Positions 1,878-62,945 of a DNA stretch of 64,000 nucleotides are shown here, piece by piece; within the stretch, counting starts at the first letter, position 1; the number at the start of each line of letters is the position of its first letter. Both the position numbers and the translations under genes were made by a program. The stretch is from positions 930,421 through 994,420 of the forward strand of contig NZ_SADE01000002.1 in assembly GCF_004005845.1 (NCBI RefSeq), in the 5' to 3' direction. A model generated the notes under the pieces. That model ran no database searches and was not told where the DNA came from. It was given only the letters and a program-made list of their open reading frames with translations. The stretch is from Hwanghaeella grinnelliae. Its GTDB lineage: Bacteria; Pseudomonadota; Alphaproteobacteria; UBA8366; Aestuariispiraceae.

Positions 1878-1888
1878 CGGAACAAGCG

Positions 1889-2932
1889 CTAGCCGAACAA
1901 TTCCATCGCCATCCGAAGCAACGGATCGACCGCCGCGGCATCGGTCCAACGGGCAACCAGGACAATGCGCTGTCGGGGTGCGATCCATAACAGGTTTCCG
2001 CCGGCGCCCATTGCGGCAAAACTGTCTTCCGGTCCGGACGGCCATTCACGCCCGGCGGTGTTCAGCCACCAAAGCATCCCGTACCCGTCGTTGACGGCAC
2101 AGGGTTGCCGGACGGTTTCGGTCCATCCCTCAGGCAGCAGGCGCCGGTTGTCCCAGACACCGTCATTCAGGATGAGTTGCCCGAAAAGCGCATGATCGCG
2201 GCTGCTGATGCGTAGTCCCCCGCCCCAGTGGGACCCGCCGGGGACCGATTGCATTCGCGTCCCGTCGATATCGACATAGGAATTCTCATAGCCGTGCCAG
2301 GTCCATGTGTCAGACGCCCCGATCGGGTCCATGATCCGTTCCTTCAGGACCGCAGGCAGCGGTTGCCGGAAAAGCCGTAACAGGCACAGCGACAGCAGAT
2401 TTACGCGGACGTCATTATATTCCCAATAGGATCCCGGTGCCTGCAAATCACGGTGTTGGCCCTTGCGACTGTTGTCGGCGTCAGCGCCGACTTGCCGATT
2501 CCGGTCGACCAGATCGGGCTTGTCCCACAATTGGCCGTCCCACTCGCTGGTCAAGGTCAACAGGTGCCGCCACGTGATCGCGCCGTTATGCGGTCCGTCG
2601 AATTCCTGCCCGGGCAGTGTCTTTGCAACCGGGTCGTCCAACGACCCGATCAGCCCGTCGCCAAGCGCCACGCCCGCCAATATCGATAGATAGGATTTGG
2701 CGATTGAGAAAGTGAGGTCGCAACGGTCCGGGTCACCCCATTCCACCACGGCCTCGCCATTCTTAAAGACGATGCCGTTGGGCCCTCCGCGCTCGAAAAG
2801 CGGCCCGAGCACTTTGTTCCAGGGTGGCGGTTCGATCTCGGTCAGGCCGGGCAAGGGCGATTCATCGAGGTCGCGAGGCCAATCCACTTCCGACTGAAGG
2901 GCCAGTGCAATGAAGTCGTCTCTGGTCGTCAT
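1889..2932 (-). CDS. Serine hydrolase of the beta-lactamase / penicillin-binding protein family
   Basis: 347 residues. The SxxK nucleophile motif SIAK lies near residue 77, a YND triad that fits the Y-x-N position lies in WEYNDV, and an H-x-G motif (SHWGGG) follows near residue 235. This is the class C beta-lactamase/esterase EstB fold. No signal peptide is visible, so the protein is probably cytoplasmic and more likely an esterase or amidase than a resistance enzyme. It converges on the ligase gene (11-base gap) and diverges from the GlxA-type regulator. Substrate unknown. Confidence 0.85.
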   Translation of the reverse strand: MTTRDDFIALALQSEVDWPRDLDESPLPGLTEIEPPPWNKVLGPLFERGGPNGIVFKNGEAVVEWGDPDRCDLTFSIAKSYLSILAGVALGDGLIGSLDDPVAKTLPGQEFDGPHNGAITWRHLLTLTSEWDGQLWDKPDLVDRNRQVGADADNSRKGQHRDLQAPGSYWEYNDVRVNLLSLCLLRLFRQPLPAVLKERIMDPIGASDTWTWHGYENSYVDIDGTRMQSVPGGSHWGGGLRISSRDHALFGQLILNDGVWDNRRLLPEGWTETVRQPCAVNDGYGMLWWLNTAGREWPSGPEDSFAAMGAGGNLLWIAPRQRIVLVARWTDAAAVDPLLRMAMELFG

Positions 2933-3022
2933 GGGTTGAAATCATCCTGAAACCGATTGTTTCGGGCATTGGATTGTTTCACACGGCTTCCTGCAATCCT
3001 TCCCAAGTCCGCTCCAAAAATA

Positions 3023-3057
3023 TGGCAGAAAACGACGCTTAATTGACATTTCTGCCA
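3023..3057. promoter_or_regulatory. Inverted repeat TGGCAGAAA-N17-TTTCTGCCA, likely operator
   Basis: Two perfect 9-base arms (3023-3031 and 3049-3057) lie in the divergent gap between the serine hydrolase and the GlxA-type regulator. A TTGACA box (3043-3048) sits between the arms. Arm size and position suit a dimeric regulator controlling one or both genes, possibly the neighbouring AraC-type protein itself. The binding protein is inferred. Confidence 0.5.
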
Positions 3058-3119
3058 ATCAATATATCGCCTATGATCATAGAGGGGGTAGAAGAACATC
3101 GGAACGGATCGGTTACGCC

Positions 3120-4094
3120 ATGGCGGAGAAAGTAGTCGCAGCGGTTCTTTACCCGGATTTTCAGATGTTGGACGCGACGGGCCCCTTGGAGGCCTTCGCC
3201 CTAACCAACAGGCTGCTCGGCGGCGACCCGGCATATAAGGTCGTGACAACGGCCCGGCAAAAGGGACCAGTGGAGGCATCGTCAGGCCTGACGCTGATGG
3301 CGCAAACCAGCTGGGATCAGTTGGGCGAGAATCTGGACACGTTAATCTTTATCGGCGGGCGTGGTGTTCGCACGGCGATGAAGGATAAGGACATGCTTTT
3401 CTCCGCGCGCCGCCTTTCCGGCATGGCCCGCCGCACCGCGTCGGTCTGCACCGGTGCTTTCCTTCTGGCGGAAGCGGGGCTGCTGAACGGGCGTCGGGCG
3501 ACGACCCATTGGGACGATACTGACCAACTTGCCCGCGAGTATCCACGGATATCGGTTCAACGGGATGACATCTATGTCCGGGACGGTCAGTTTGTCACGG
3601 CTGCGGGTGTAACCGCGGGTATCGATCTTGCCTTGGCGCTGATTGAGGAAGACCACGGCCGGGATGTCGCATTGGCGACCGCACGTATGTTGGTGGTCTA
3701 TTTGAAGCGCCCTGGCGGGCAGAGCCAGTTCAGCCGGGAGCTGTCAGCCCAGGCCACGTCGTCAAGCCGGTTCGAGCGGCTGCGGCAATGGATATTCGAC
3801 AATCTGGACAAACCGCTGAGCGTGGAAGATCTGGCCGACCAAGCGGCGATGGCGCCGCGCAGCCTCGCACGGCGCTTTGCGCAGGATCTCGGCGTGACAC
3901 CCGCCAAATTCGTTGAGCATGCTCGGATCGACGCGGCGCGGCGGGACCTGGAGGATGGCGGCCTCACCATCGACAAGATTGCCGCAAATCGCGGTTTTGG
4001 CGGGGCGGATCGGATGCGACGATCATTCCAGCGTTCCCTCGGTGTATCGCCGCAGGAGTATCGTGACCGTTTCAGGAGTAAAGAAAGCGTATGA
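3120..4094 (+). CDS. GlxA-family transcriptional regulator (DJ-1/PfpI domain plus AraC helix-turn-helix)
   Basis: 324 residues. The N-terminal half is a DJ-1/PfpI (class I amidotransferase-like) domain with a nucleophile-elbow cysteine at about residue 110 (SVCTGAF). Residues about 215-324 form an AraC/XylS DNA-binding domain with two helix-turn-helix units, ending in the typical RRSFQRSLGVSPQEYR segment. Such proteins sense a small molecule through the DJ-1-like domain; the ligand here is unknown. The stop overlaps the next start by 4 bases (ATGA), so it is translationally coupled to a DJ-1/PfpI enzyme. An inverted repeat with a TTGACA box lies about 63 bases upstream. Confidence 0.92.
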   Translation: MAEKVVAAVLYPDFQMLDATGPLEAFALTNRLLGGDPAYKVVTTARQKGPVEASSGLTLMAQTSWDQLGENLDTLIFIGGRGVRTAMKDKDMLFSARRLSGMARRTASVCTGAFLLAEAGLLNGRRATTHWDDTDQLAREYPRISVQRDDIYVRDGQFVTAAGVTAGIDLALALIEEDHGRDVALATARMLVVYLKRPGGQSQFSRELSAQATSSSRFERLRQWIFDNLDKPLSVEDLADQAAMAPRSLARRFAQDLGVTPAKFVEHARIDAARRDLEDGGLTIDKIAANRGFGGADRMRRSFQRSLGVSPQEYRDRFRSKESV

Positions 4095-4690
4095 ATTCCA
4101 TTGCTATATTGCTTTTCGACGGGGTTGAAGAATTGGACGCCGTTGGTCCGTGGGAAGTGTTTGCCTGGGCCGCGAAGGAAGGGTCGCCGCCGAAACCGAT
4201 GTCTGTCTTCACCCTTTCCGGGGACGGTGCCCCGGTTACTTGCGGCAAGGGCATGGTGATCACACCGGACCATTCCTTCGAAACTGCCCCTCAAATCGAC
4301 ATCCTGCTGATACCGGGCGGCCCGGGGACACGCCCGATGATAAAGGATGAGGCGATGCTGGACTGGGTGCGAAAGACGGCAGCCGGCTGTACCTGGATCA
4401 CGGCGGTGTGCACCGGCGCCATGGTGTTGGCGAAGGCCGGCCTCGCCAAGGGCAAACGCATCACCACCTATCACGACGTCGTCGAACCGATGCGGCAATG
4501 GTCCGACGCGGAAGTTTTGGCGGGGGTGCGGTTTGTCCGCGACGGCAATCTGGTTACCTCCGCCGGTGTATCCGCCGGAATCGACATGGCCTTGTGGCTC
4601 GTCGGGCAACTGGCGGGCGCGGACTATGCGCGCGAGGTGCAACAGGGCATCGAGTATTTCCCCGCCCCGCCATATTCCTATGAGGCTTGA
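4091..4690 (+). CDS. DJ-1/PfpI family protein, isonitrile hydratase-like
   Basis: 199 residues, a single DJ-1/PfpI domain. The nucleophile is Cys107 in AVCTGAMVLAKAG and an early acidic residue sits in ELDAVGP near residue 16. Both match the pattern of Pseudomonas InhA, an isonitrile hydratase, and of the sensor half of the preceding regulator. It lies in an operon with that regulator (4-base overlap) and a cupin gene (3-base gap). A hydratase, glyoxalase or deglycase activity is possible; isonitrile hydratase is the nearest named match from memory and is not proven. Confidence 0.8.
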   Translation: MNSIAILLFDGVEELDAVGPWEVFAWAAKEGSPPKPMSVFTLSGDGAPVTCGKGMVITPDHSFETAPQIDILLIPGGPGTRPMIKDEAMLDWVRKTAAGCTWITAVCTGAMVLAKAGLAKGKRITTYHDVVEPMRQWSDAEVLAGVRFVRDGNLVTSAGVSAGIDMALWLVGQLAGADYAREVQQGIEYFPAPPYSYEA

Positions 4691-52475: not shown

Positions 52476-52604
52476 ATGGCTTGCCAAGACGCGGGCGAAA
52501 CCGCTAAACAGCCCGTGGCCTTCCACGGGCTGTTTTTGTTCGACCCCTTCGTTCGGTCCTTTTTGATCGTTCCACGAGTATTCAGGCAGGTTCTGGAAGA
52601 ATGA
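52476..52604 (+). CDS. Candidate phenylalanine-rich leader peptide before pheS
   Basis: A 42-codon frame starting at ATG 52476 reads through the rplT-pheS terminator hairpin. It carries six Phe codons within 21 codons (residues 16-36) and ends with a TGA that overlaps the pheS ATG by 4 bases. pheST is controlled by a Phe-rich leader peptide in E. coli (pheM). Against the idea: no ribosome site is visible before this ATG, most Phe codons lie after rather than before the terminator stem, and some come from its T-run. Confidence 0.25.
52506..52537 (+). terminator. Strong Rho-independent terminator or attenuator between rplT and pheS
   Basis: A 10-bp perfect stem CAGCCCGTGG/CCACGGGCTG (52509-52518, 52523-52532) with loop CCTT is lengthened by A-T pairs on its base and followed by TTTTT. 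It should end most rpmI-rplT transcripts or act as an attenuator in front of pheS, which starts 64 bases later. Confidence 0.85.
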
Positions 52605-53689
52605 CGGCAATTGATGTTGAGGCGTTGAAATCGGAGCTTCTGGAAGAAGTTTCGTCCGCTGCGGACCTTGCGGCCCTGGATTCGGCGCGGGTAGGAGCCT
52701 TGGGCAAGAAGGGCAAGATCACCGCCGCCATGAAGGGGCTGGGCGGCCTGTCGCCGGAAGAACGCAAAACGACGGGGCAGGCGCTCAACGCGGTAAAGGA
52801 CGCCGTTGCCGAGGCGATCGACGCTCGCAAGGCAGACCTGGAAGCCGCGGCGCTTCAACAACAGCTCGAGTCGGAAAGATTGGACGTTTCGCTGCCTGTC
52901 CGCCCGGAATCTCGCGGCAAACTGCATCCGATCAGCCAGACCATGGACGAAATCGTTGCGATTTTCGGCGCCATGGGGCTTTCCGTCCGCGAAGGGCCGA
53001 ATATCGAAGACGACTTCCACAATTTCACCGCGCTGAACATTCCAGCCGAACATCCCGCCCGGCAGATGATGGATACGTTCTATCTGCAGGACGAGAACGG
53101 CAATCCGGATTTCGAGAAGGTGCTGCGCACTCATACCTCGCCCGTTCAGGTCCGGACGATGCAGAGCGAAGAACCGCCGATCCGCATCATCGCGCCGGGC
53201 CGTACCTACCGATCCGACTATGACGCGACCCATACGCCGATGTTCCATCAGGTTGAAGGCTTGGTCATCGACAAGCACATCACATTCGGCCATCTGAAAG
53301 GCTGCTTGCAGGAATTCTGCGACGCCTATTTCGAGGTGGAAAACGTGCCGCTGCGCTTCCGACCCAGTTACTTCCCCTTCACGGAGCCGAGTGCGGAAGT
53401 GGATATCGGCTGTTCCCGCGAAGGCGGCGAATTGAAGATCGGCCATTACGACGATTGGCTGGAAATTCTGGGCTGCGGCATGGTGCATCCGAAGGTGCTG
53501 CAGCATTGCGGCATCGATCCAGAGGAATACCAGGGTTTCGCTTTCGGGATGGGGATAGAGCGGATCGCGATGCTGAAATACGGCATCCCGGACCTGCGCA
53601 CCTTCTATGAAGCGGATATCCGCTGGCTGAAACATTACGGTTTCGTGCCGCTGGAAGTCGCCAGTCTGGAACGCGGGCTGACGCCGTAA
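52601..53689 (+). CDS. pheS: Phenylalanine-tRNA ligase alpha subunit
   Basis: 362 residues. N-terminal coiled-coil region (residues 1-85), then the class II catalytic core with [51 protein letters not shown] and the motif 3 [15 protein letters not shown]. Together with PheT it charges tRNA-Phe. It is not followed directly by pheT, as is usual, but by a hairpin and a 3.9-kb insertion. Confidence 0.97.
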
Positions 53690-53707
53690 ACCGCGTAGCG
53701 GTTTACG
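53685..53707. repeat. Perfect inverted repeat across the pheS stop codon
   Basis: CGTAAACCGC (53685-53694) and GCGGTTTACG (53698-53707) form a 10-bp hairpin with loop GTA that includes the pheS stop TAA. There is no T-run on either strand. It could be mRNA 3'-end protection, a two-way weak terminator, or the edge of inserted DNA. Confidence 0.5.
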
Positions 53708-53728
53708 CGCCACAACCTTCCGACAGTA

Positions 53729-54229
53729 TCAGCTTTTTGGCGCCGGCATGATCGAGCATGTCGTGGTGCCATGCGCCAACAGCTTGCCGCTTTCCGACAT
53801 CAACTTGCCTTCGGCCGTGGCCGTGGTGCGGCCGCGATGGATCAAGGTCCCGGTCGCCCGGATGATGCCGGTATGCGGCAGGATCGGTCGCACCATGTTC
53901 ACCTTGGCTTCAACCGTGATATAGGCCTCGCCCGGCAGCAGCGTGGTGTGGATGGCGCATCCCATGCAACTGTCCAGTACCGTCATGGCATAACCGCCAT
54001 GCACAGTACCGATCGGGTTCAAGAGGTGTTCGTCCGGATCGGAAGCGAAGACCGCGCGCCCCTCTTCAACTTCAACCAACCGCATCCGCATCGGGCCGGC
54101 GATTGGCGGGATGGGATAAACACCGTCCCGGACACCGGTCAGGAAGTCCATCCCGGACATCGAGAACACTTCGGACACCGGCAAAGTGCCGAGTTCATCT
54201 GCGCCGGGCGCGGAAAAGACCTTTTCCAT
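53729..54229 (-). CDS. PaaI-type hotdog-fold thioesterase
   Basis: 166 residues from ATG 54229. Hotdog domain with LLNPIGTVHGGYAMTVLDSCMGCAI (the HGG motif with the likely catalytic region) and ITVEAKVNMVRPI, GTLIHRGRTTATAEGKL. It hydrolyses acyl- or aryl-CoA thioesters in the cytoplasm; substrate unknown. It is the first gene after pheS and on the opposite strand, so it breaks the pheST operon. Confidence 0.9.
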   Translation of the reverse strand: MEKVFSAPGADELGTLPVSEVFSMSGMDFLTGVRDGVYPIPPIAGPMRMRLVEVEEGRAVFASDPDEHLLNPIGTVHGGYAMTVLDSCMGCAIHTTLLPGEAYITVEAKVNMVRPILPHTGIIRATGTLIHRGRTTATAEGKLMSESGKLLAHGTTTCSIMPAPKS

Positions 54230-54439
54230 TGTTCTACCAGGATAGCGGTTCTGACAGTTGGAGACGCGTAAATATCTGAGTGCGAAGCCGGGGGAAAGCT
54301 TAAAAGCGACGCGATCCAGCACGCGGTGCCATTGAAAGGGTTGAGGGCGGCGGTGCCAGACCTCTCTCATAACGGGCAATAGACCGGCGCATGGTTCATG
54401 CGTAGCAATAGTGTTCTTCACCAAGACGGGAGACACACA

Positions 54440-55111
54440 ATGAATCCATTCAATGCATCATTTCTAATGTCGGAGCTGATCGACGAGGCTGAAGAGGCTG
54501 GAATCCGTATCTCGTTCCGCACCGATATTGCCGCGCTTTACAGGCTGGAGAACGAGTTGACCGGTAAGGCGCTATCGCCCCTGTTCCATCCTGGGAAGTT
54601 TGATCTCGTTTCAGATCGTGTTTTTTGGATCCACGGGACGAACGAGGAAGGTCGCACCGTGCATGTCCAGGCATCGAAATTGGACGATACGGGCAGGAAC
54701 AACCTAGAGGAGTTGCTGCAGGCACAACTCGCCCGCTGCTTCCATTCTGACCCACCGCTGACCAATGGTTCGCCGATGCGGGCGTTGCAGGGTCTGTGCG
54801 CCTATCATGGGGATACCTGGGTCGATCGGGACCTTCGAAAGAACGGTCTGGGACCGCTGCTAACCAAGATAGGGCTGCTTGCAACCTTCATCCGCTGGCA
54901 GCCCGACTATGTCTATGCCTGGTTCGAAAACCCTATCATGTATGGCGGGTTTGGGGTGCGGTCATGGTACACCAACTTCGCCCGTGTCGGGCAGCACTGG
55001 CATAAATGGATCCTGCCGCAGGAGTTCTTCTCGTGGATGTCCCACGAGGACATGATCAATTTAATAGAATTGGAGACTCCGCGAAGCGGGCTAAAACACC
55101 TACCGCGTTAA
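54440..55111 (+). CDS. Uncharacterised GNAT-like acyltransferase, copy 1
   Basis: 223 residues from ATG 54440 with GGGAG seven bases upstream. Not a named family to me. The C-terminal half has a GNAT-like acyl-CoA loop, YHGDTWVDRDLRKNGLGPLL (R-x-x-G-x-G), followed by a helix and a strand, FIRWQPDYVYAWFENPIMYGGFG. The N-terminal half (SPLFHPGKFDLVSDRVFWIHGTNEEG) aligns with the gene at 60175. Substrate and acyl donor unknown. Its last 56 bases overlap the convergent PAS-like gene, the same design as the second copy. Confidence 0.75.
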   Translation: MNPFNASFLMSELIDEAEEAGIRISFRTDIAALYRLENELTGKALSPLFHPGKFDLVSDRVFWIHGTNEEGRTVHVQASKLDDTGRNNLEELLQAQLARCFHSDPPLTNGSPMRALQGLCAYHGDTWVDRDLRKNGLGPLLTKIGLLATFIRWQPDYVYAWFENPIMYGGFGVRSWYTNFARVGQHWHKWILPQEFFSWMSHEDMINLIELETPRSGLKHLPR

Positions 55112-55523
55112 ACTCGTTGAAACGCACGGGGAACACGTAGCGGAAAAACTCCACTGAGAACTTCGTACCGTAGACGTCGATCGGCGCACGCACCCGCTGC
55201 GCAATCGGCGTCTCGGTGCGGCTCACGATCCAATAGTCACGGTTCAGCGTTTGCTCGAAGGCGCTGTCCGGCAGGCCTTCCTTGCCCTGGGCATCGACGC
55301 AGAATTCCTCGCCGTACAAGTCCCCGACGACCGACTTCGCCCCACAATAAAGATAACGCGATCCGTTATCGCCGACCGCATGGAGTTGCAAGAAAGGCAG
55401 AAAATCTTCCAACTCATTCTGGTTCAACGAGAAACGGCCTTTGGACGTGGCATACCAATCCAGGCAACGCCGGAACAAGACGTCGTCGACCTCCTCCGGG
55501 GAGGTCAAGGTGAGCCTTTCCAT
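55056..55523 (-). CDS. PAS_5-like single-domain protein
   Basis: 155 residues from ATG 55523; an earlier ATG at 55562 lies inside the upstream gene. The pattern LDWYATSKGRFSLNQNELEDFLPFL followed by RYLYCGAKSVVGDLYGEEF and a C-terminal VYGTKFSVEFFRYVFPVRF resembles the PAS_5 group, with no output domain. It is second in a minus-strand pair after a 76-residue protein (19-base gap). It overlaps the GNAT-like gene tail to tail by 56 bases. Ligand unknown. Confidence 0.7.
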   Translation of the reverse strand: MERLTLTSPEEVDDVLFRRCLDWYATSKGRFSLNQNELEDFLPFLQLHAVGDNGSRYLYCGAKSVVGDLYGEEFCVDAQGKEGLPDSAFEQTLNRDYWIVSRTETPIAQRVRAPIDVYGTKFSVEFFRYVFPVRFNEFNAVGVLARFAESPILLN

Positions 55524-55542
55524 TGGGACGTCCGTCAAGGAT

Positions 55543-55773
55543 CTAGTCGCCTTTCCGCGCAAGGTCCCGGAAACCTTCGATGAACCCGATCAGGTCGCGC
55601 ATTTGCCGATTGTTCAGTTCGTTCAAAGACATGACGCCGAACTTGTCTGAAATATAGGCCCGAACGAGCGGCGCCAATTCAAAATCTTCGGATAGGGCCT
55701 GAATCTTAGCAGCATTGCTGTCGAGCAGAATGCTGAGGATTTCCGACGAAACCTGTGTGTGTCTATTGACCAT
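55543..55773 (-). CDS. 76-residue protein of unknown function upstream of the PAS-like gene
   Basis: 76 residues, mostly helical by composition: HTQVSSEILSILLDSNAAKIQALSED, then LVRAYISDKFGVMSLNELNNRQMRDLIGF. No DNA-binding or membrane motif is evident and I recognise no family. Its frame, strand and 19-base spacing to the PAS-like gene suggest a two-gene operon. Confidence 0.6.
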   Translation of the reverse strand: MVNRHTQVSSEILSILLDSNAAKIQALSEDFELAPLVRAYISDKFGVMSLNELNNRQMRDLIGFIEGFRDLARKGD

Positions 55774-55866
55774 TGAGTATCACACCGTTGGTGAACAAGA
55801 GTGGCCGGAACATAATCCACTAAACCCAAACGGGCAAACACCGTGTTTCGGTTGCGGCCCCTTTGG

Positions 55867-56346
55867 TCACACCGGCAACAGCCTGCTCAGGAAGGTCGAA
55901 CGCTGGCGGTCTTCTTCCTCCAGATGGACGAAATGTTCGTACATCAAGGCAATCAGCCGGGCGCGTTTCTCCGTAGAGATGTTGACGTCGAACTGCGACA
56001 AGCGTTCTTCGAGATTTTCGATGACCATTGCCAGCAAATCGTGATCGATCGGGCCTTCCTGCTCGACTGTCGGCCGGTGTTCCTCGCCATAGGCCAACCA
56101 ATCCATGCCGACGCCCGCCGCCGATGCCAGGGCGCGGACGGTGAAGAAAGTCGGCTTCGCCTTACCGTCGATGTATTTGGTGATCATCTCCGCCTTTACA
56201 TTGGCGATCAGTCCGGCGCGTTTGCGGCTGCCGATTTCATCGACAACCTGCCGCAGCCTGTCCCTGAATCCGGTGTCCTGGGAAAAATCCTCTGGCCATA
56301 AGGCCGTGTCGACCTGGACGGGCCGTTCCTTCGTGGTCGTACTCAT
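55867..56346 (-). CDS. XRE-family transcriptional regulator
   Basis: 159 residues from ATG 56346. A helix-turn-helix sits at about residues 28-90: FRDRLRQVVDEIGSRKRAGLIANVKAEMITKYIDGKAKPTFFTVRALASA, then AGVGMDWLAYGE, typical of Cro/CI-like domains followed by a WL..G helix. The C-terminal part is helical and acidic (HDLLAMVIENLEERLSQF), perhaps for dimerisation. A near-perfect palindrome lies 77 bases upstream. It is on the same strand as the 76-residue/PAS-like pair, 93 bases before it, and may regulate it. Confidence 0.85.
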   Translation of the reverse strand: MSTTTKERPVQVDTALWPEDFSQDTGFRDRLRQVVDEIGSRKRAGLIANVKAEMITKYIDGKAKPTFFTVRALASAAGVGMDWLAYGEEHRPTVEQEGPIDHDLLAMVIENLEERLSQFDVNISTEKRARLIALMYEHFVHLEEEDRQRSTFLSRLLPV

Positions 56347-56422
56347 CTGCTGTCTACCATTCCCCCTGGTTGCGGGCCCTCGCATGAACACGGATCGCCG
56401 GATGCCCAAAACCGATTTCCAA

Positions 56423-56436
56423 ACCATAACTATGGT
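56423..56436. promoter_or_regulatory. Inverted repeat ACCATA-AC-TATGGT upstream of the XRE gene
   Basis: Perfect 6-base arms around two central bases, in the divergent gap between the XRE gene (minus) and the ParB-like gene (plus). It may be the XRE protein's own operator. No consensus promoter was identified next to it. Confidence 0.4.
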
Positions 56437-56640
56437 CGCTGATGAATGCGATGACAACCAACCGAAAGTATAGCATCGAATGCCGACAATAGAGGGTTAC
56501 CTAACGTCTGTGGATTGAAAAGCCGTGCCGCGATGCATTAGTTTAATTGGAATAGTTGTTTGGTGGGGGCGGCCGGCAGTATGCGTGGCGGGATCACCCC
56601 TGTTGTTTAAACCGTATTGAATAGTGGCGTTTCCCGTCCC

Positions 56641-57453
56641 ATGAAAGTTCATCATATTTCCCTCTCCGAAATTGAGGTACGCGATCGACTCCGCCCGGCC
56701 ACGCCGGAATATGTCGACGGTTTGGCCGGTGACATGGACAAGCGCGGCCTTCGTTCTCCGATTGAAGTGAGCAAAGAGCCCGACGAACAACACTACATAC
56801 TGGTAAGCGGTCTGCATCGGTTGATGGCGGCGCGGCAGCTTGGTTGGGAAACCATCCCGGCCTTTGTCGTCTCGGGGTCGAATGAGGAGTTGCGGCTGGA
56901 CGAATTGCTGGAAAACTTGCAGCGGAACGAGTTAACGCGGTTGGAGCGCTGTCTTTTCGTGGCGGAATACCGCCGACTTATCCAACAAAGTCGGCCCGAG
57001 ACCCGCCGTGGGGGGGATCGAAAGAGCGGTGATTTCCACCAAAGTGCAGTTGATGGCACTTTGACAAGCTGGTGGGACGACTTGGCGGTGCGATCGGACC
57101 GGTCGCGCCGAACCATCATGCGGGAAGCATCCGTGGGTGAGAAGTTGGACCCGGTAGCGGTTTCCAAATTGAGTATGTCGCCCGTCGCCGACAATCTTGG
57201 CGAGCTGGAGGTCCTCAGTAAATTCGATGGGGCGAAACAATCGCAGATCGCTGATGTCCTTGCCACGACCAATGCGCCTGTCCCCACGGTGGGTGCTGCG
57301 GTCCGGGCCATGGAGAAGAGGGGCGATTCCGAGGAAACCGAGGGTCCGGATGACCTTGCCTATAACAAGCTGCTTTGGCATTGGCGGTCGGCCAGCGCAA
57401 CGGTGCGCCGCCGCTTTATCGTCCATGTCCTGGAAGAGAAGGATTTGCCTTGA
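56641..57453 (+). CDS. ParB-like (ParB/sulfiredoxin-fold) DNA-binding protein
   Basis: 270 residues from ATG 56641; a TTG start eight codons earlier is possible. N-terminal ParB fold: ISLSEIEVRDRLR, RGLRSPIEVSK, the box SGLHRLMAARQLGW and ENLQRNELTRLERCLF. A helix-turn-helix-like region follows (DDLAVRSDRSRRTIMREASVGEKL). The C-terminal part (ADNLGELEVLSKFDGAKQSQIADVLA) is helical. No parA or parS-like site accompanies it, so it is more likely an orphan regulator than a chromosome partition protein. It lies immediately before pheT. Confidence 0.85.
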   Translation: MKVHHISLSEIEVRDRLRPATPEYVDGLAGDMDKRGLRSPIEVSKEPDEQHYILVSGLHRLMAARQLGWETIPAFVVSGSNEELRLDELLENLQRNELTRLERCLFVAEYRRLIQQSRPETRRGGDRKSGDFHQSAVDGTLTSWWDDLAVRSDRSRRTIMREASVGEKLDPVAVSKLSMSPVADNLGELEVLSKFDGAKQSQIADVLATTNAPVPTVGAAVRAMEKRGDSEETEGPDDLAYNKLLWHWRSASATVRRRFIVHVLEEKDLP

Positions 57454-57571
57454 ACGGGGACGTCTCGTCACTGGCTGGCTGCCTTGTTTCGCGCGCCGGG
57501 CCTGTTTATAAGCCCGGGACGCCTTATGTTTCAGGCGTCTTCAGAAAGCATTCCACGGTCACGGCAAGCAC

Positions 57572-59980
57572 ATGAAATTCACACTCTCCTGGCTCAAGGA
57601 TCACCTCGATACCGACGCTTCGGTGCGAGAAATCGCCGATAAGCTGACCTCCATCGGGCTCGAGGTAGAATCCGTCGACGACCCTTCCGCGGGTTTGGCG
57701 CCGTTTGTCATCGGTTACGTGGAAGAGGCACGGAAGCACCCGAATGCAGACCGTCTGCAAGTGTGCATGGTGAATACCGGGTCCGAAATTGTCCAAGTGG
57801 TTTGCGGCGCGCCAAATGCGAGGACCGGCATGAAGGGCGTTTTCGCACCGGCCGGGTCACACATTCCGGGTACCGGTATCGACCTGAAATCCGGGGAAAT
57901 CCGGGGGGAAGCATCAAACGGTATGCTGTGCTCCGAGCGTGAGATGGGCCTCAGCGACGAGCATGACGGCATTATCGAATTGGCTGCCGATGCGCCGGTT
58001 GGAACAGGCTTCGCCGCGTTCGCCGGTCTGGACGACCCTGTTTTCGAGATCGGCATTACCCCGAACCGGGCAGACTGCCTGGGTGTCTATGGCATCGCAC
58101 GCGACCTTGCCGCGGCGGGGTTGGGTACCTTGAAAGCACCGGATCTGGACCGGATCGACGGTGTCTACGACAGCCCGTTGACATGGGAAATCGCCGATGA
58201 AGCAGTCGGCGTTTGCCAATATGTTGCCGGTCGGCATTTCCGGAACGTGAAGAACGGGCCGAGCCCGAAATGGATGCAGCAGCGCCTGAAGGCGATCGGC
58301 CTTCGCCCGATTTCGGCCCTAGTGGATATCACAAACTATGTGACCTATGACCTGGGGCGGCCGCTGCACGTCTTCGATGCGGATAAGGTCAAAGGCAATC
58401 CGACCATGCGGTTCGCCCGCGACGGCGAGAGCATACTGGCATTGGATGGCCGCGAATACGCGTTGGACGACAGCATGCTGGTCATTGCGGACGAAAACGG
58501 TCCGGAAGGGATCGGCGGTGTGATGGGCGGCGAGGTTTCGGGCTGTACGTTGGAAACCACAAACGTCTTTCTGGAAGTGGCGCTTTTCGATCCGATCAAG
58601 GTTGCGGAGACGGGCCGAAAGCTCGGCATCAACTCCGATGCCCGTTACCGCTTCGAGCGCGGGCTTGATCCGGCATCCGCGGAATGGGGCGTTCAGGTCG
58701 CCACGCGACTGATTCTGGCGCTTTGTGGCGGTGAAGCCAGCCAGGAAGTGAATGTGGGTGAAGTTCCGACGCTGGACCGCAAGATCGACTTGCGGATGGC
58801 GCGCTTGCAAAGGCATAGCGGCATAGAAGTGCCGGCGGCTGAGGCGGAAGCCATTCTTTCGCGTCTTGGCTTCGGCACGATGCGCGACGGGCAGGTCATC
58901 ACGGCCGATGTGCCGGGATGGCGGAAAGACGTCGAAACGGAATATTGCCTGATTGAGGAAGTGCTGCGGATTTACGGGTTCGACAAGGTCCCGGCAGTCC
59001 CCCTGACGCCGGAAACGGCCCTTCCCACGCCGGCGGTCAGCAACGAACAGCGGCGCGTCGCCTATGCGAAAAAGATTTTGGCGCAACGGGGTATGTTGGA
59101 AGCGGTGACATGGTCCTTCATGCCCTCGGCGCTGGCGATGAAATTCGCGGATGAGGACAATTTCGATCTTGCTGAAATGACGCTTGCCAACCCGATCAGT
59201 TCGGATCTGGACGTCATGCGTCCCAGTATTTTGCCGAATCTCATCCAAGCCGTGGTTCGCAATGCCGACCGTGGCCAACCGGATGGCATGCTGTTCGAAG
59301 TTGGCCCTGCCTTCCGGGACCCGTCGCCCAAGGGGCAAGACACGGTTGCCGCCGGTATCCGGGCCGGAAAGTCCGGCCCCCGGCATTGGGAGCATGCGCC
59401 GCGGGATGTTGATGCGTTCGACGCCAAGGCAGACGCGATGGCGGTTTTGGAAGCGTGCGGCGCCCCAGTGCAGAACCTGCAAGTCTCGACCGATGCGCCG
59501 GCTTGGTATCATCCCGGCCGGTCCGGCGGACTGCGTCTGGGACCGAACGTGCTTGCCTGGTTCGGTGAATTGCATCCTGGCCTGGCGCGGCAGATGGATA
59601 TTAAGGGCAAGGCCGCCATTTTCGAGATCTTCATGGACCGCATTCCGCAACCGCGGTCGAAAGGCGGCGGTAAGGCGCGCCCGCTGTTAAAGACTGAGAA
59701 TCTTCTGCCGGTCTACCGGGACTTCGCATTCCTTGTTTCTTCCGGTACATCCGCCGATGCCTTGGCGCGTGCGGCTGCCGGTGCAGACAAAAAGATGATC
59801 ACGGATGCGGCGATTTTCGATGTCTATACCGGTGCCGAACTTGAGGGGCAGAAATCCGTGGCCGTCACCGTGACGATCCAACCGACGGACAAGACCCTGA
59901 CGGATGAGGACATCGACGCGATCGCCGGCAAGATCGTCGCGAATGTCGAAAAGCAGACCGGCGGGAAGCTGCGCGTCTAG
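57572..59980 (+). CDS. pheT: Phenylalanine-tRNA ligase beta subunit
   Basis: 802 residues, full length. The N-terminal tRNA-binding (EMAP-like) domain is at about 40-150 (HPNADRLQVCMVNTG). B3/B4 editing domain near 210-400 with LVDITNYVTYDLGRPLHVFDADK; B5 near 400-475; a catalytic-like fold with EAVTWSFM and LPNLIQAVVRNADRG; and the C-terminal anticodon-binding FDX domain (PVYRDFAFLV). A 118-base gap separates it from the ParB-like gene, so it probably has its own promoter. Confidence 0.97.
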   Translation: MKFTLSWLKDHLDTDASVREIADKLTSIGLEVESVDDPSAGLAPFVIGYVEEARKHPNADRLQVCMVNTGSEIVQVVCGAPNARTGMKGVFAPAGSHIPGTGIDLKSGEIRGEASNGMLCSEREMGLSDEHDGIIELAADAPVGTGFAAFAGLDDPVFEIGITPNRADCLGVYGIARDLAAAGLGTLKAPDLDRIDGVYDSPLTWEIADEAVGVCQYVAGRHFRNVKNGPSPKWMQQRLKAIGLRPISALVDITNYVTYDLGRPLHVFDADKVKGNPTMRFARDGESILALDGREYALDDSMLVIADENGPEGIGGVMGGEVSGCTLETTNVFLEVALFDPIKVAETGRKLGINSDARYRFERGLDPASAEWGVQVATRLILALCGGEASQEVNVGEVPTLDRKIDLRMARLQRHSGIEVPAAEAEAILSRLGFGTMRDGQVITADVPGWRKDVETEYCLIEEVLRIYGFDKVPAVPLTPETALPTPAVSNEQRRVAYAKKILAQRGMLEAVTWSFMPSALAMKFADEDNFDLAEMTLANPISSDLDVMRPSILPNLIQAVVRNADRGQPDGMLFEVGPAFRDPSPKGQDTVAAGIRAGKSGPRHWEHAPRDVDAFDAKADAMAVLEACGAPVQNLQVSTDAPAWYHPGRSGGLRLGPNVLAWFGELHPGLARQMDIKGKAAIFEIFMDRIPQPRSKGGGKARPLLKTENLLPVYRDFAFLVSSGTSADALARAAAGADKKMITDAAIFDVYTGAELEGQKSVAVTVTIQPTDKTLTDEDIDAIAGKIVANVEKQTGGKLRV

Positions 59981-60061
59981 CACGAAAGCGCGTGTGAACG
60001 GGCCCGGTTCCATTAGGAACGCGGCAAGGCTGTGTTCAGCGTCTCCTCGATTGTAGATAAT

Positions 60062-60083
60062 TGCGGAAACCCGCAGTATTTTT
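60062..60083 (+). terminator. Probable short terminator after pheT
   Basis: A 5-bp stem TGCGG/CCGCA with loop AAAC is followed by GTATTTTT, 82 bases after the pheT stop in an AT-rich patch. The stem is short. Confidence 0.5.
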
Positions 60084-60174
60084 ATAAAATTACAATCTTC
60101 GATTTATTTTCTTTAAGTTGACACCCGCTATTGTTCCTTATCGGAATTCGAAACGATGGGTTAAGGCGCGGGGC

Positions 60175-60888
60175 ATGATCAATGAGTTGAAGACTGTTCG
60201 TTTTTTGACGGCGCTGGACGGCAAAGCGAAGGAAGCCGGTGTCTCGATCGAGATGTCGACGGATTTTGTCCATCTGCAGCAATTGGTGGACGAGTTGGAC
60301 GGGCGGGACCCGCTTTCGCCGATTTTCGATTGGCGGAAATGCCGTGTCGGCGCAGAGAACGCTTTTTGGATCAAAGGGGTGAACGATACAGGCGCGTGCG
60401 TATTGCTGCAGGCCGCGCGGATCGACGATTTGGGGAACAAGAACCTCGCCGAGCACATCGCGGAGAACAGGGACCTCATCCACACGCCTTATTTCAAGGC
60501 AGACACAAAGAACTCCATTTTTGACGAGTGCTACTATCTTGAACGGATCACGGGCAGGGTCGTCTACGCTGGTGAAACTTGGATTTCGCCAAATGGCCCG
60601 TATCGCGGCGGTGGATTGGCGTCTGTATGTTCAGGCTTCGCCTTCGGTCTATCCCTGTTGCGATGGCGGCCGGACTATATGTATGGCACGGCAACGCATT
60701 CCCTGATGGTGCGCGGGATTGCCGCGAAATACGGCTACTATCACCAGCATCCCAAAGGCCTTCGTTGGCGGCGGGCCGATGGGAAGGGGCATGTGGATGA
60801 ATGGATCGTTTGGATGGACCTGAAAGATCTGGCCGATGCTACGGGGTCTCTAGAAACGGAAACGCCACATTTGGCAGCAGATCGGTAA
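60175..60888 (+). CDS. Uncharacterised GNAT-like acyltransferase, copy 2
   Basis: 237 residues from ATG 60175; the frame extends to a TTG at 60118 that is part of a TTGACA -35-like box. It is related to the gene at 54440: EAGVSIEMSTDF against EAGIRISFRTDI, then FWIKGVNDTG against FWIHGTNEEG, and LRWRPDYMYG against IRWQPDYVYA. The GNAT-like loop reads GPYRGGGLASVC. No family name is known to me. Its last 50 bases overlap the convergent gene at 60839-61774. Confidence 0.75.
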   Translation: MINELKTVRFLTALDGKAKEAGVSIEMSTDFVHLQQLVDELDGRDPLSPIFDWRKCRVGAENAFWIKGVNDTGACVLLQAARIDDLGNKNLAEHIAENRDLIHTPYFKADTKNSIFDECYYLERITGRVVYAGETWISPNGPYRGGGLASVCSGFAFGLSLLRWRPDYMYGTATHSLMVRGIAAKYGYYHQHPKGLRWRRADGKGHVDEWIVWMDLKDLADATGSLETETPHLAADR

Positions 60889-61774
60889 AAACCTGCACGG
60901 CAGGCACGTGGTGTCCGCTGGGCACCGGCAGCATGAGCCGCTGATACTGTACCCAAGCTGAAATCCCGCTCGGCAGTTCCAGATGGCCGACAACAAAGTC
61001 CACCCTTGGCTTGAAGGTGCGCGCCACGTCCCGGTATTCTTGGTTCATCCGGGCTTCATGACGATTATGCGCGCCCAGTTTGCGGGAATTGACGCTCAAT
61101 GCTTCTGCCTTCCAATCCTCGCCGTAGTACCGAAGAATCGGCGCCTGTGTTCCGACATAGCTCAGCCGGAGGGTGTCGTCGTCATCGTCGGCTGACGCCA
61201 GGACAGCGCGCGTGCCGGCAAGTTTCCAGAAAGCTTCCTTTGCTTCCGGGCATTTCTTCTCGATCATTTGGCGCCAAAGCGAAAAGGCCAATCTTCCGAA
61301 CGGTGTGACGATGTTCCCCTCGGTCGGCTCGGTTTGCCGTATGAAAGTGGTCGGCAGGGGGACCAAGTTCCCGGCGGAAGACAGTGCGCGAAAGCGATCC
61401 GCTGCGCCGTGTGGGGAATATACCCGCTCGATGCACCACCCGCCCATGTCGTAACAAAGAAGGATAACTTTTCCAGGCGACTCGTTGCGCAGCCTTTGTT
61501 CCGTGAAACAGGCGGCACGGGCGCTGAGGCGCATTGGGTTCCATCGGATGACGAAGAAATGTGAATCCCGAAAGGTCGCAACCCCACCCTGACTATAATC
61601 AAGGGCCAAGGGGAACGGGGCGACGCTAAGATTCAGTGCGTGTGGATTGAGTTCCGGCATCAAATCCACGGCGAGCGTTTCAACGCCGGATGCATGGATC
61701 CGGGATGCAACGCCAAATCGCGTGTCGCTGATCCCCCCCACAAGATTAGTCGTCAGACTGGTTGAGCCAATCAT
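60839..61774 (-). CDS. Unknown protein with a PAS_5-like C-terminal half
   Basis: 311 residues from ATG 61774, chosen for GGGGAGG ten bases upstream (the frame reaches a TTG at 61804). The N-terminal part (about 1-110) has no recognisable motif (TTNLVGGISDTRFG, FVIRWNPMRLSARAACF). The C-terminal half (about 150-311), with RLAFSLWRQMIEKKCP, LRLSYVGTQAPILRYYGEDW, YRDVARTFKPRVDFVV and WVQYQRLMLPVPSG, follows the PAS_5 pattern. It overlaps the GNAT-like gene by 50 bases, as its counterpart does at 55 kb. Confidence 0.7.
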   Translation of the reverse strand: MIGSTSLTTNLVGGISDTRFGVASRIHASGVETLAVDLMPELNPHALNLSVAPFPLALDYSQGGVATFRDSHFFVIRWNPMRLSARAACFTEQRLRNESPGKVILLCYDMGGWCIERVYSPHGAADRFRALSSAGNLVPLPTTFIRQTEPTEGNIVTPFGRLAFSLWRQMIEKKCPEAKEAFWKLAGTRAVLASADDDDDTLRLSYVGTQAPILRYYGEDWKAEALSVNSRKLGAHNRHEARMNQEYRDVARTFKPRVDFVVGHLELPSGISAWVQYQRLMLPVPSGHHVPAVQVFTDLLPNVAFPFLETP

Positions 61775-62225
61775 CTGCGGCACGCCTCCCCAAGCGCCAT
61801 ACAAATCAAAACCGCGAGCAAAGAAAATGTTGCACGGTTCAAAAAAACAAGCAAACGCAAAAGCTTATAGCACACATAAGGCGATGTTCATTAACACTAA
61901 TAATAATCAAAGGTAGCAAAATCGTCTTTCCGTCAGGCCCCAATCAACGTCGGGAGGTTTTCAAACATGGAGGCACGGTGTCAGGGTATGGCGTTCGTAT
62001 GACCTATGTATTTGGTTGCCATTGGCGAGCGTTGTTGTAGGTCGCCGCCGCCTCGAGTAACTTCATTGGTAGTTTGTGCGTGGCGTTCGGAATTGAGCGG
62101 TTTTGGGAAGTTTCTTTTCGTTTTCCTTCATCTACGTATGTTTCTACTGGCCTAAATAAGTAAATCACAGTAAATCCAAATAACGGAGAGTGAGCGAATA
62201 TTTGATGAGTGAGGAGATCGGTGCG
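61775..62225. other. AT-rich gene-free interval upstream of the J-domain gene
   Basis: No supported gene. It holds the upstream region of the unknown minus-strand gene (A-rich 61802-61920) and of the J-domain gene. An 11-codon frame at 61967 behind GGGAGG is too short to call. No clear terminator is seen. Confidence 0.5.
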
Positions 62226-62945
62226 ATGGACGGTTTCACGATAGGAGCGGATTCCCTGCGGAATACGGGGCGATCCACGGCTTCGTCACCGGAGGAGGAT
62301 GTCAAATCCGCCCGAAAACTGTCATACGCTGTTCCTTGTTCATCACGCTTCCGAGACGCTGTTCTAGAGATGGCCGCGGACCGCGAGGTCAATGTCGGCG
62401 ACCTGGCGCGGTCGATCATGCTGACCTTGTCGCCGGACGCCATTAAAGGCGCCACGGATCCGGGAGAGCCGGAAGAAAGCGACCGCGAAACCGTCGTGCT
62501 GAAATCCGGGCCAAGTGCGGGCAAGCCGTGGCGTCGGAAGCCCCGTCTGCAGGTCAGATTGCCGGCAGGCCATGATGTCGTCGATATACGAAAGGCGCTG
62601 GGGATTGCTTTGGACCTGCATGGCGGAGATTGCGAAGTCCGACTGGAATCGGCGGCCGCCCCGGAATGGCCTGAAATCGTCCATGAATTGGAAGAGAAAG
62701 TCGCGCGCCTTCAAGTAACGATCGCGACATTGGCTTTCGAACCCTTGGCGAACGGCGTGCGAACGCAAGATGAAGCGATGCATGTCTTGGGGTTCATTCC
62801 AGGCACCCGTCCAGATTCGAAAACAATCAAGGCGCGATACAGAATGATGGCGGCAATACACCATCCGGATAGCGAATTTGGCGACCACGCGCGGATGTCA
62901 CAGATAAATCAGGCCATGAGTTTGCTGAAAAACGGCCTGCTTTAG
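62226..62945 (+). CDS. J-domain protein with a possible DNA-binding N-terminus
   Basis: 239 residues from ATG 62226, preferred because GAGGAG lies nine bases upstream; ATG 62205 and GTG 62190 are alternatives. The C-terminus (about 185-239) is a J domain with EAMHVLGF, the HPD motif in AAIHHPDSEFG, and INQAMSLLKNG. Near residue 40, SSRFRDAVLEMAADREVNVGDLARSIML resembles a ribbon-helix-helix domain. A coiled segment (EIVHELEEKVARLQVTIATL) precedes the J domain. The client is unknown. Confidence 0.8.
   Translation: MDGFTIGADSLRNTGRSTASSPEEDVKSARKLSYAVPCSSRFRDAVLEMAADREVNVGDLARSIMLTLSPDAIKGATDPGEPEESDRETVVLKSGPSAGKPWRRKPRLQVRLPAGHDVVDIRKALGIALDLHGGDCEVRLESAAAPEWPEIVHELEEKVARLQVTIATLAFEPLANGVRTQDEAMHVLGFIPGTRPDSKTIKARYRMMAAIHHPDSEFGDHARMSQINQAMSLLKNGLL

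Follow-up and report, generated by a model that had tools for sequence, protein, structure and literature searches.

The 64,000-nucleotide stretch of Hwanghaeella grinnelliae DNA studied here (contig NZ_SADE01000002.1, positions 930,421 to 994,420; hereafter the window) contains, on both sides of pheT, a pair of convergent genes in which a plus-strand gene encoding a GNAT-like acyltransferase ends inside the 3′ end of a minus-strand gene encoding a PAS-like protein. We tentatively propose, as a reading that may quite possibly be right, that such a GNAT/PAS pair constitutes a two-gene small-molecule signalling unit, one gene of which would encode the producer of an acyl-metabolite and the other a PAS receptor or regulator responding to it. 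The evidence comes from the recurrence of the pair, the correlated divergence of its members, the predicted folds of both proteins and the genes with which relatives of the pair are associated.

The coordinates of the open reading frames (ORFs) in the window confirmed that both pairs are arranged tail to tail. In pair 1 the 223 aa GNAT protein is encoded at positions 54440..55111 of the plus strand and the single-domain PAS protein at 55056..55523 of the minus strand, the 3′ end of the PAS gene covering the last 56 bp of the GNAT gene. The PAS gene is drawn from the ATG at 55523; its start may be the TTG at 55562. Pair 2 consists of a 237 aa GNAT-family acyltransferase-like protein (60175..60888, plus strand), an ORF assigned by its homology to the pair 1 GNAT, and a 311 aa protein (60839..61774, minus strand) in which profile and alignment place a PAS-like region behind an N-terminal part without known fold; here the overlap is 50 bp. 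According to the ORFs of the window, pheT lies between the two pairs at 57572-59980.

The GNAT proteins of pairs 1 and 2 are homologues of each other, at 27% over 230 aa (E 4e-27). Their PAS partners show only weak similarity in a single comparison (24% over 86 aa, E 3e-4), and both score in a 25-sequence seed profile that was itself built with both included. The source genome (5.3 Mb on 7 contigs; labelled G000) contains two further pairs. Pair 3 is located on another contig (C1:1365883-1366975), shares 43% with the GNAT and 38% with the PAS protein of pair 1 and also has an overlap of 56 bp, while pair 4 (C4:500153-501601; overlap 48 bp) is more divergent. Pair 1 has its closest relative in this genome not in pair 2 but in pair 3 on a different contig, which rules out that pair 2 arose from pair 1 by a local or recent duplication. 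Thus, of the duplicated module that the preliminary description saw in the window, the second pair with the same layout stands but the local duplication does not; as judged from their sequences, the four pairs of this genome are old paralogues.

GNAT matches were obtained in 19 of the 43 genomes surveyed in the order (38 matches), and five more GNAT genes were found beside PAS genes. A convergent PAS neighbour is present for 39 of the 43 GNAT genes of the order, a tally that includes these five as well as two PAS matches (G007:C15:401558 and G004:C271:72221) weaker than the E <= 1e-15 by which a strong PAS match is defined. Pairing at this frequency is not due to chance. Three of the four remaining GNATs belong to genomes of genus g7 that have a related PAS gene elsewhere, and the fourth is at a contig end. 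In eleven loci of the order a second PAS gene (alignment A5) is present upstream of the first. Beyond the order, the GNAT was detected in at least 44 of 385 genomes of the class, spread over many of its families, and in at least 10 of 398 genomes of a phylum sample, counts that are lower bounds since no more than seven candidates were scored per genome. All ten matching genomes of the phylum sample are of this same class, the Alphaproteobacteria; the sample says little on other classes because the non-matching genomes shown were also of this class. The pairing is therefore not confined to this genome, and its occurrence across order and class supports the earlier suggestion of a co-inherited working pair.

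Several collections together yielded 81 distinct GNAT ORFs, a count in which one interrupted gene (L066) appears as two pieces and some tandem copies are included. Sixty-two of them face a convergent PAS ORF, two of the 62 (in L059 and L066) being distant second ORFs; in four the orientation has changed, the PAS gene lying downstream on the same strand; and for 15 no PAS match was found at E <= 1e-3. These 15 comprise four GNATs in L054 and L057 that by eye run into a PAS-resembling ORF, one (L048) with a LysR-PAS gene upstream, those of the three g7 genomes, one at a contig end (L024), four from actinomycetes, and L063 and L089, in which no PAS was seen and the former of which faces what looks by eye like a histidine-kinase gene. 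L054 and L057 each have two tandem GNAT genes that appear, again by eye, to run into one PAS-like ORF. Nine further loci came from the phylum sample: two with a convergent PAS gene (L125, L129), three with a LysR-PAS gene (L120, L121, L128), one with a doubtful helix-turn-helix (HTH)-PAS protein (L126) and three with neither (L122, L123 and L124; L123 is near a contig end).

The two genes overlap in 52 of the 62 convergent pairs, by 6-222 bp and in all three phases. The overlap is at least 20 bp in 48 of them, and the median for all 62, with gaps counted as negative, is 50 bp. In a small control counted by eye, with the PLSDB tables being incomplete, three of 18 ordinary convergent neighbours from three annotated 50-kb stretches overlap (4, 4 and 38 bp). 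The difference at 20 bp or more (48 of 62 versus 1 of 18) gives a Fisher p of 4e-8, a value that is only indicative because the control is small and the paired loci are related. The upstream regions of three GNAT genes revealed no convincing DNA element in common.

GNAT and PAS proteins diverge in parallel. Across 62 adjacent pairs, counting also those with both genes on the same strand, their distances are correlated with a Mantel r of 0.83, a value reached in none of 2000 permutations, and their nearest neighbours agree in 39 of 62 pairs versus 1 expected. Since linkage alone could cause a correlation of distances, cases in which the two genes are unlinked count most. Such a case was found by following the DnaJ-like gene (62190..62945, plus strand) beside the PAS gene of pair 2, a conserved landmark that probably does not belong to the system and that marks the site of pair 2 in 13 of 14 genomes of the family. 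A PAS gene lies beside it in G000, G004, G002, G001 (~1.4 kb away) and in G010, G012 and G013 of genus g7, and these three g7 genomes have a related GNAT gene elsewhere. The three unlinked GNATs are nearest to those of L011, L003, L045 and L018 and the accompanying PAS proteins to those of L018, L045 and L003, the same subfamily in a different order. Their congeners G008, G009 and G011 have neither a GNAT match nor a PAS gene beside the DnaJ-like gene; a single weak PAS match was seen elsewhere in G008 and another in G009. In G006 and G007 the DnaJ-like gene directly follows pheT and no pair is present; in G005 neither gene was found at the site, and in G001 the PAS gene has been retained and no GNAT was detected.

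To obtain structures, the pair 1 proteins were modelled with AlphaFold, using alignments of 31 GNATs (A3) and of 27 partners (A4, adjacent partners only); L038 was excluded from A3, A4 and A5. The model of the GNAT protein (pLDDT 91.4) has as its best Foldseek match one with E 8e-7, among 194 at E <= 0.001, and aligns in VIA with SpeG (Z 12.4, root mean square deviation (rmsd) 3.2, 150 residues aligned); the Foldseek and VIA matches shown are GNATs. The predicted structure is a GNAT fold. The coenzyme A (CoA)-binding loop of GNATs has the motif R/QxxGxG/A, and pair 1 contains RxxGxG within 'LRKNGLG'. The arginine of this loop, R133, is present in at least 90% of the 31 sequences of A3, and the G/A positions in many, not all (RKTNLA in pair 3). 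As the GNATs of the window have no Pfam or NCBIfam match above the cut-off, membership of the superfamily rests on fold and loop; Acetyltransf_1 matched three of the 31 aligned GNATs (best E 0.0054), and a profile search against the sequences of solved structures returned nothing for them.

The pair 1 PAS protein was modelled from the TTG codon (55056-55562; pLDDT 91.2), and nearly all structural matches shown for it are PAS proteins. The PAS signal receptor VqmA ranks first in Foldseek (E 4e-3, probability 1.00); in VIA, photoactive yellow protein reaches Z 10.2 (rmsd 3.0, 114 residues aligned) and VqmA with DPO Z 9.5. The modelled fold is clearly that of a PAS domain, and for pair 2 both folds would follow from alignments A3 and A4. 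The models thus uphold the GNAT-like and PAS-like folds first suggested from the letters of the DNA. The more specific assignment to PAS_5 is not supported, as Pfam gave no PAS_5 match at E <= 1 for any of the 27 partners; one of them matched PAS_4 (E 0.0027). The PAS proteins of the window have no Pfam or NCBIfam match above the cut-off, NCBIfam scans of GNAT and PAS proteins alike gave nothing meaningful, and a profile search of solved structures with the PAS partners returned a single meaningless match (E 4.1). A profile comparison (hhalign) of the upstream tandem PAS proteins (A5) with the PAS proteins of pairs 1 and 3 (A2) revealed no link (probability 0.1%); both groups score in the 25-sequence seed profile, which contains the pair 1 and pair 3 proteins.

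Several relatives connect the PAS protein to transcription. In four loci of family f26 (L048, L120, L121 and L128) a PAS-like region is fused to an HTH_1 domain of the LysR type (E 7e-11 to 3e-9), and the gene for the fusion has the same orientation as the GNAT gene, which it immediately precedes. When three of these proteins were combined in a profile of the C-terminal region, hhalign matched it to the PAS profile (96%, E 2e-9); L128 was recognised through the LysR-PAS family (E 3e-98) and not through the PAS profile. At pair 1 the conserved gene order extends beyond the module as first described. Upstream of the PAS gene on the minus strand are a small ORF of 76 aa (55543..55773; no convincing Pfam match) and an XRE/CI-like HTH gene (55870..56457; HTH_3 E 0.0023, under the Pfam cut-off), the true start of which may be internal to the ORF. 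L012 of G007, another genus, has the same order, with an HTH homologue that is 33% identical in tblastn and scores above the cut-off (HTH_3 E 5e-5). Homologues of the small ORF occupy the same place in pair 3 (L002), in L012 and in L016 of G003; the flanking stretch examined at pair 3 contains no such HTH gene. Finally, L126 encodes a protein, without a Pfam match, that combines a region resembling the pair 1 HTH protein (35% over 69 aa) with a weak PAS-like end and that faces the GNAT gene with an overlap of 66 bp.

Other relatives of the GNAT point to small-molecule metabolism. Searches with tblastn located the GNAT on 26 plasmid records, 18 of the 20 listed being annotated 'hypothetical protein'. 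An ATP-grasp gene is adjacent in four of the seven plasmid loci inspected; both ATP-grasp proteins scanned have an L-amino-acid-ligase C-terminal domain, and two of these four loci also have an ectB-annotated gene, identified as a class III aminotransferase in the one scanned. GNAT relatives on rhizobial plasmids, pNGR234a among them (L132-L134), have ATP-grasp genes beside them and, in two, the ectB-annotated gene. Five of the seven plasmid loci gave no PAS gene beside the GNAT, and a convergent one was seen in Azospirillum brasilense Sp7 (L135 on plasmid p1, gap of 18 bp) and Roseibium (with a SnoaL-like gene in between). A. brasilense Sp7 can be cultured, as can Oceanibaculum pacificum, which carries L081. 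In the actinomycetes Microbispora, Microtetraspora and Streptosporangium (L082-L085), relatives of the GNAT lie beside ThiF, PLP-like (by eye) and methyltransferase genes, the ThiF and methyltransferase domains each having been scanned in one locus, and no PAS gene is adjacent. Judged by gene content, this neighbourhood is likely a natural-product cluster, and some GNAT relatives that have no adjacent PAS gene likely sit in biosynthetic operons. In L122 the GNAT gene is followed by one for an MFS transporter.

PAS genes also occur alone. Of the 69 strong PAS matches in the order, 44 have a GNAT gene no more than 1.6 kb away and 25 have none so near; neighbours were read for 20 of these 25, at 14 loci (all but G016:C138, G018:C293, G034:C53, G036:C276 and G017:C31), several being on short contigs. 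Some solos form tandem arrays of two to four genes (L106, L108, L117 and L118), L118 having four of them without a GNAT at 1879-4202 and an unrelated-looking convergent ORF as 3′ neighbour. By comparison, only one of the 20 order genomes with a GNAT has no strong PAS match, and that GNAT is at a contig end. Signal systems would be expected to show receptors without a synthase but hardly ever the reverse, though regulators with shared inputs could also produce such a pattern.

If the GNAT/PAS pair is indeed a signalling unit, the GNAT-fold enzyme would acylate an amino compound, with acyl-CoA or an acyl-carrier as donor, and the PAS protein would bind the resulting metabolite in its PAS pocket. 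The state of the PAS protein would then be passed to transcription, in one family through the LysR-type DNA-binding domain with which it is fused and at pair 1 possibly through the neighbouring XRE-type regulator together with the small protein. The convergent overlap would keep the genes together and would probably let transcription of one gene damp that of the other. Several divergent pairs in one genome might act as separate signal channels, and solo PAS genes might be receptors that listen without producing. The idea of a producer and its receptor, raised in the preliminary description, gains indirectly from the PAS-LysR fusions, the likely biosynthetic operons, the PAS solos and the luxI/luxR-like topology; the metabolite, its binding and the regulation are what we infer.

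A number of observations weigh against it. No match to Autoind_synth (LuxI) was obtained for the 31 aligned GNATs, nor to Autoind_bind and GerE (LuxR) for the 27 partners, at E <= 1; the absence of acyl-homoserine lactone synthases from the 50 VIA matches shown excludes nothing. The Pfam scan found no HTH in the PAS proteins of the window, PAS 1 has no DNA-binding domain of its own, and the HTH neighbour was seen in only one other genus. The match to VqmA is weak (E 4e-3, with none of the Foldseek matches of the PAS model reaching 0.001), photoactive yellow protein scores as well as VqmA, and both folds are generic. GNATs without adjacent PAS gene are found in five of the seven plasmid loci, the four actinomycete loci, L063, L089, L122, L123 and L124. 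The wide variation in overlap length and phase implies that there is no fixed antisense element, and the split-but-kept case in g7 may be one event in close relatives.

Other explanations would account for part of these data. An unlikely but weighty one is that the GNAT is an enzyme with the PAS protein as its target or controller, either acetylating the PAS protein or being bound and controlled by it, with no diffusible metabolite. A physical complex would explain the strict pairing and the correlated divergence just as well, and the top fold matches of the GNAT include protein N-acetyltransferases; co-retention of the unlinked genes is neutral in this respect. PAS solos and tandem arrays that have no GNAT nearby, as well as GNAT homologues in likely biosynthetic operons without adjacent PAS gene, argue against such a complex. 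We consider it rather improbable that the pair is a homeostatic switch instead of a cell-cell signalling device, with the GNAT modifying an internal metabolite or detoxifying a compound and the PAS protein sensing the substrate. A LysR-type HTH-PAS gene directly upstream of an enzyme gene is the usual layout of a substrate-responsive regulator, and polyamine acetyltransferases top the VIA list; a housekeeping switch would, however, rarely be expected to come in PAS arrays or in several divergent pairs in one genome, although recurrent catabolic genes may exist among the neighbours, which were surveyed unsystematically.

That the GNAT is a toxin and the PAS protein its antitoxin, or that the two form a defence unit, is very improbable. 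GNAT toxins exist, a bacterial toxin structure is among the VIA matches, the pairs are divergent and multi-copy with partner-only copies, and pair 2 has been gained or lost between pheT and the DnaJ-like gene. Against this, the layout is convergent and not operonic, PADLOC gave no matches at E <= 1 for 7 proteins, the position of the DnaJ-side pair is conserved in genera g1 and g3, and a scan of viral contigs with alignment A6 gave no relative, a weak test of phage origin made with one query. Least credible of all is an overlap that came about by accidental gene drift, between genes without joint function. Its variable length (6-222 bp) and phase would fit such an accident, but the survey speaks against it: the pairing of 39 of the 43 order GNATs, the spread over many families of the class, the split-but-kept cases, the same-strand pairs and the LysR HTH fusions.

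The surroundings of pair 1 deserve a separate remark. pheS and pheT are often adjacent genes. In the pheS-pheT region of the window (52601-59980) they are separated by ~3.9 kb, in which lie a 4HBT thioesterase gene, both genes of pair 1, the small ORF, the HTH gene and a ParB-like gene (56617-57453), the last standing alone between the HTH gene and pheT.

Should the producer/receptor reading of the GNAT/PAS pair be correct, a class rich in symbionts and marine bacteria would have a signalling family that annotation misses, in keeping with the annotation gap seen here for all four GNAT and PAS proteins of the window. The pairs would then offer a way into the search for acylated metabolites not yet described, and the model can be put to the test on the variants in which the genes are split, solo, tandem or fused. 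If no signalling is involved, a two-gene unit with a 3′ overlap recurring in many genera would still lend itself well to studying in nature why convergent overlaps persist. It is possible, though doubtful, that the pairs represent an undescribed family of cell-cell signalling systems present in a good part of the Alphaproteobacteria, with a synthase of GNAT fold and a receptor of PAS fold, as many as five orthogonal copies in one genome, LysR- or XRE-type output partners, and a convergent-overlap layout reached independently of luxI/luxR. Titles and abstract beginnings of open-licence PMC papers yielded no description of a GNAT/PAS pair.

The pairs share features with several known systems. 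In ectoine synthesis diaminobutyrate is made and acylated by EctB and EctA, and on two rhizobial plasmids the GNAT and an ectB-annotated gene are on the same short stretch; those stretches differ in having ATP-grasp ligases and no PAS gene that we could find. The pair 1 partner has a single PAS domain and no output domain, as do photoactive yellow protein and further PAS proteins that stand alone; identity in the photoactive yellow protein matches shown is 7-10%. VqmA, the PAS-fold intracellular receptor of DPO in Vibrio quorum sensing, resembles the PAS model weakly and at the level of the fold. It has its own HTH, and its signal DPO is not known to be made by a GNAT, whereas the PAS proteins of the window have no HTH and four relatives carry one of the LysR and not the LuxR type. 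LuxI-type synthases have a GNAT-like fold. Neither protein described here matches the LuxI or LuxR profiles, and the partner is a PAS protein. The luxI/luxR genes of type R2 are convergent and overlap by 2-79 bp, an arrangement present in 53 genomes (PMC3386692), and the overlap of SprI/SprR is 23 bp (PMC6930789). In layout, GNAT/PAS pairs (52 of 62 overlapping at their 3′ ends, by 6-222 bp) resemble these R2 pairs, and the roles of synthase and receptor would extend the resemblance to function; LuxI/LuxR systems also have receptor solos, which have their counterpart here in the PAS solos.

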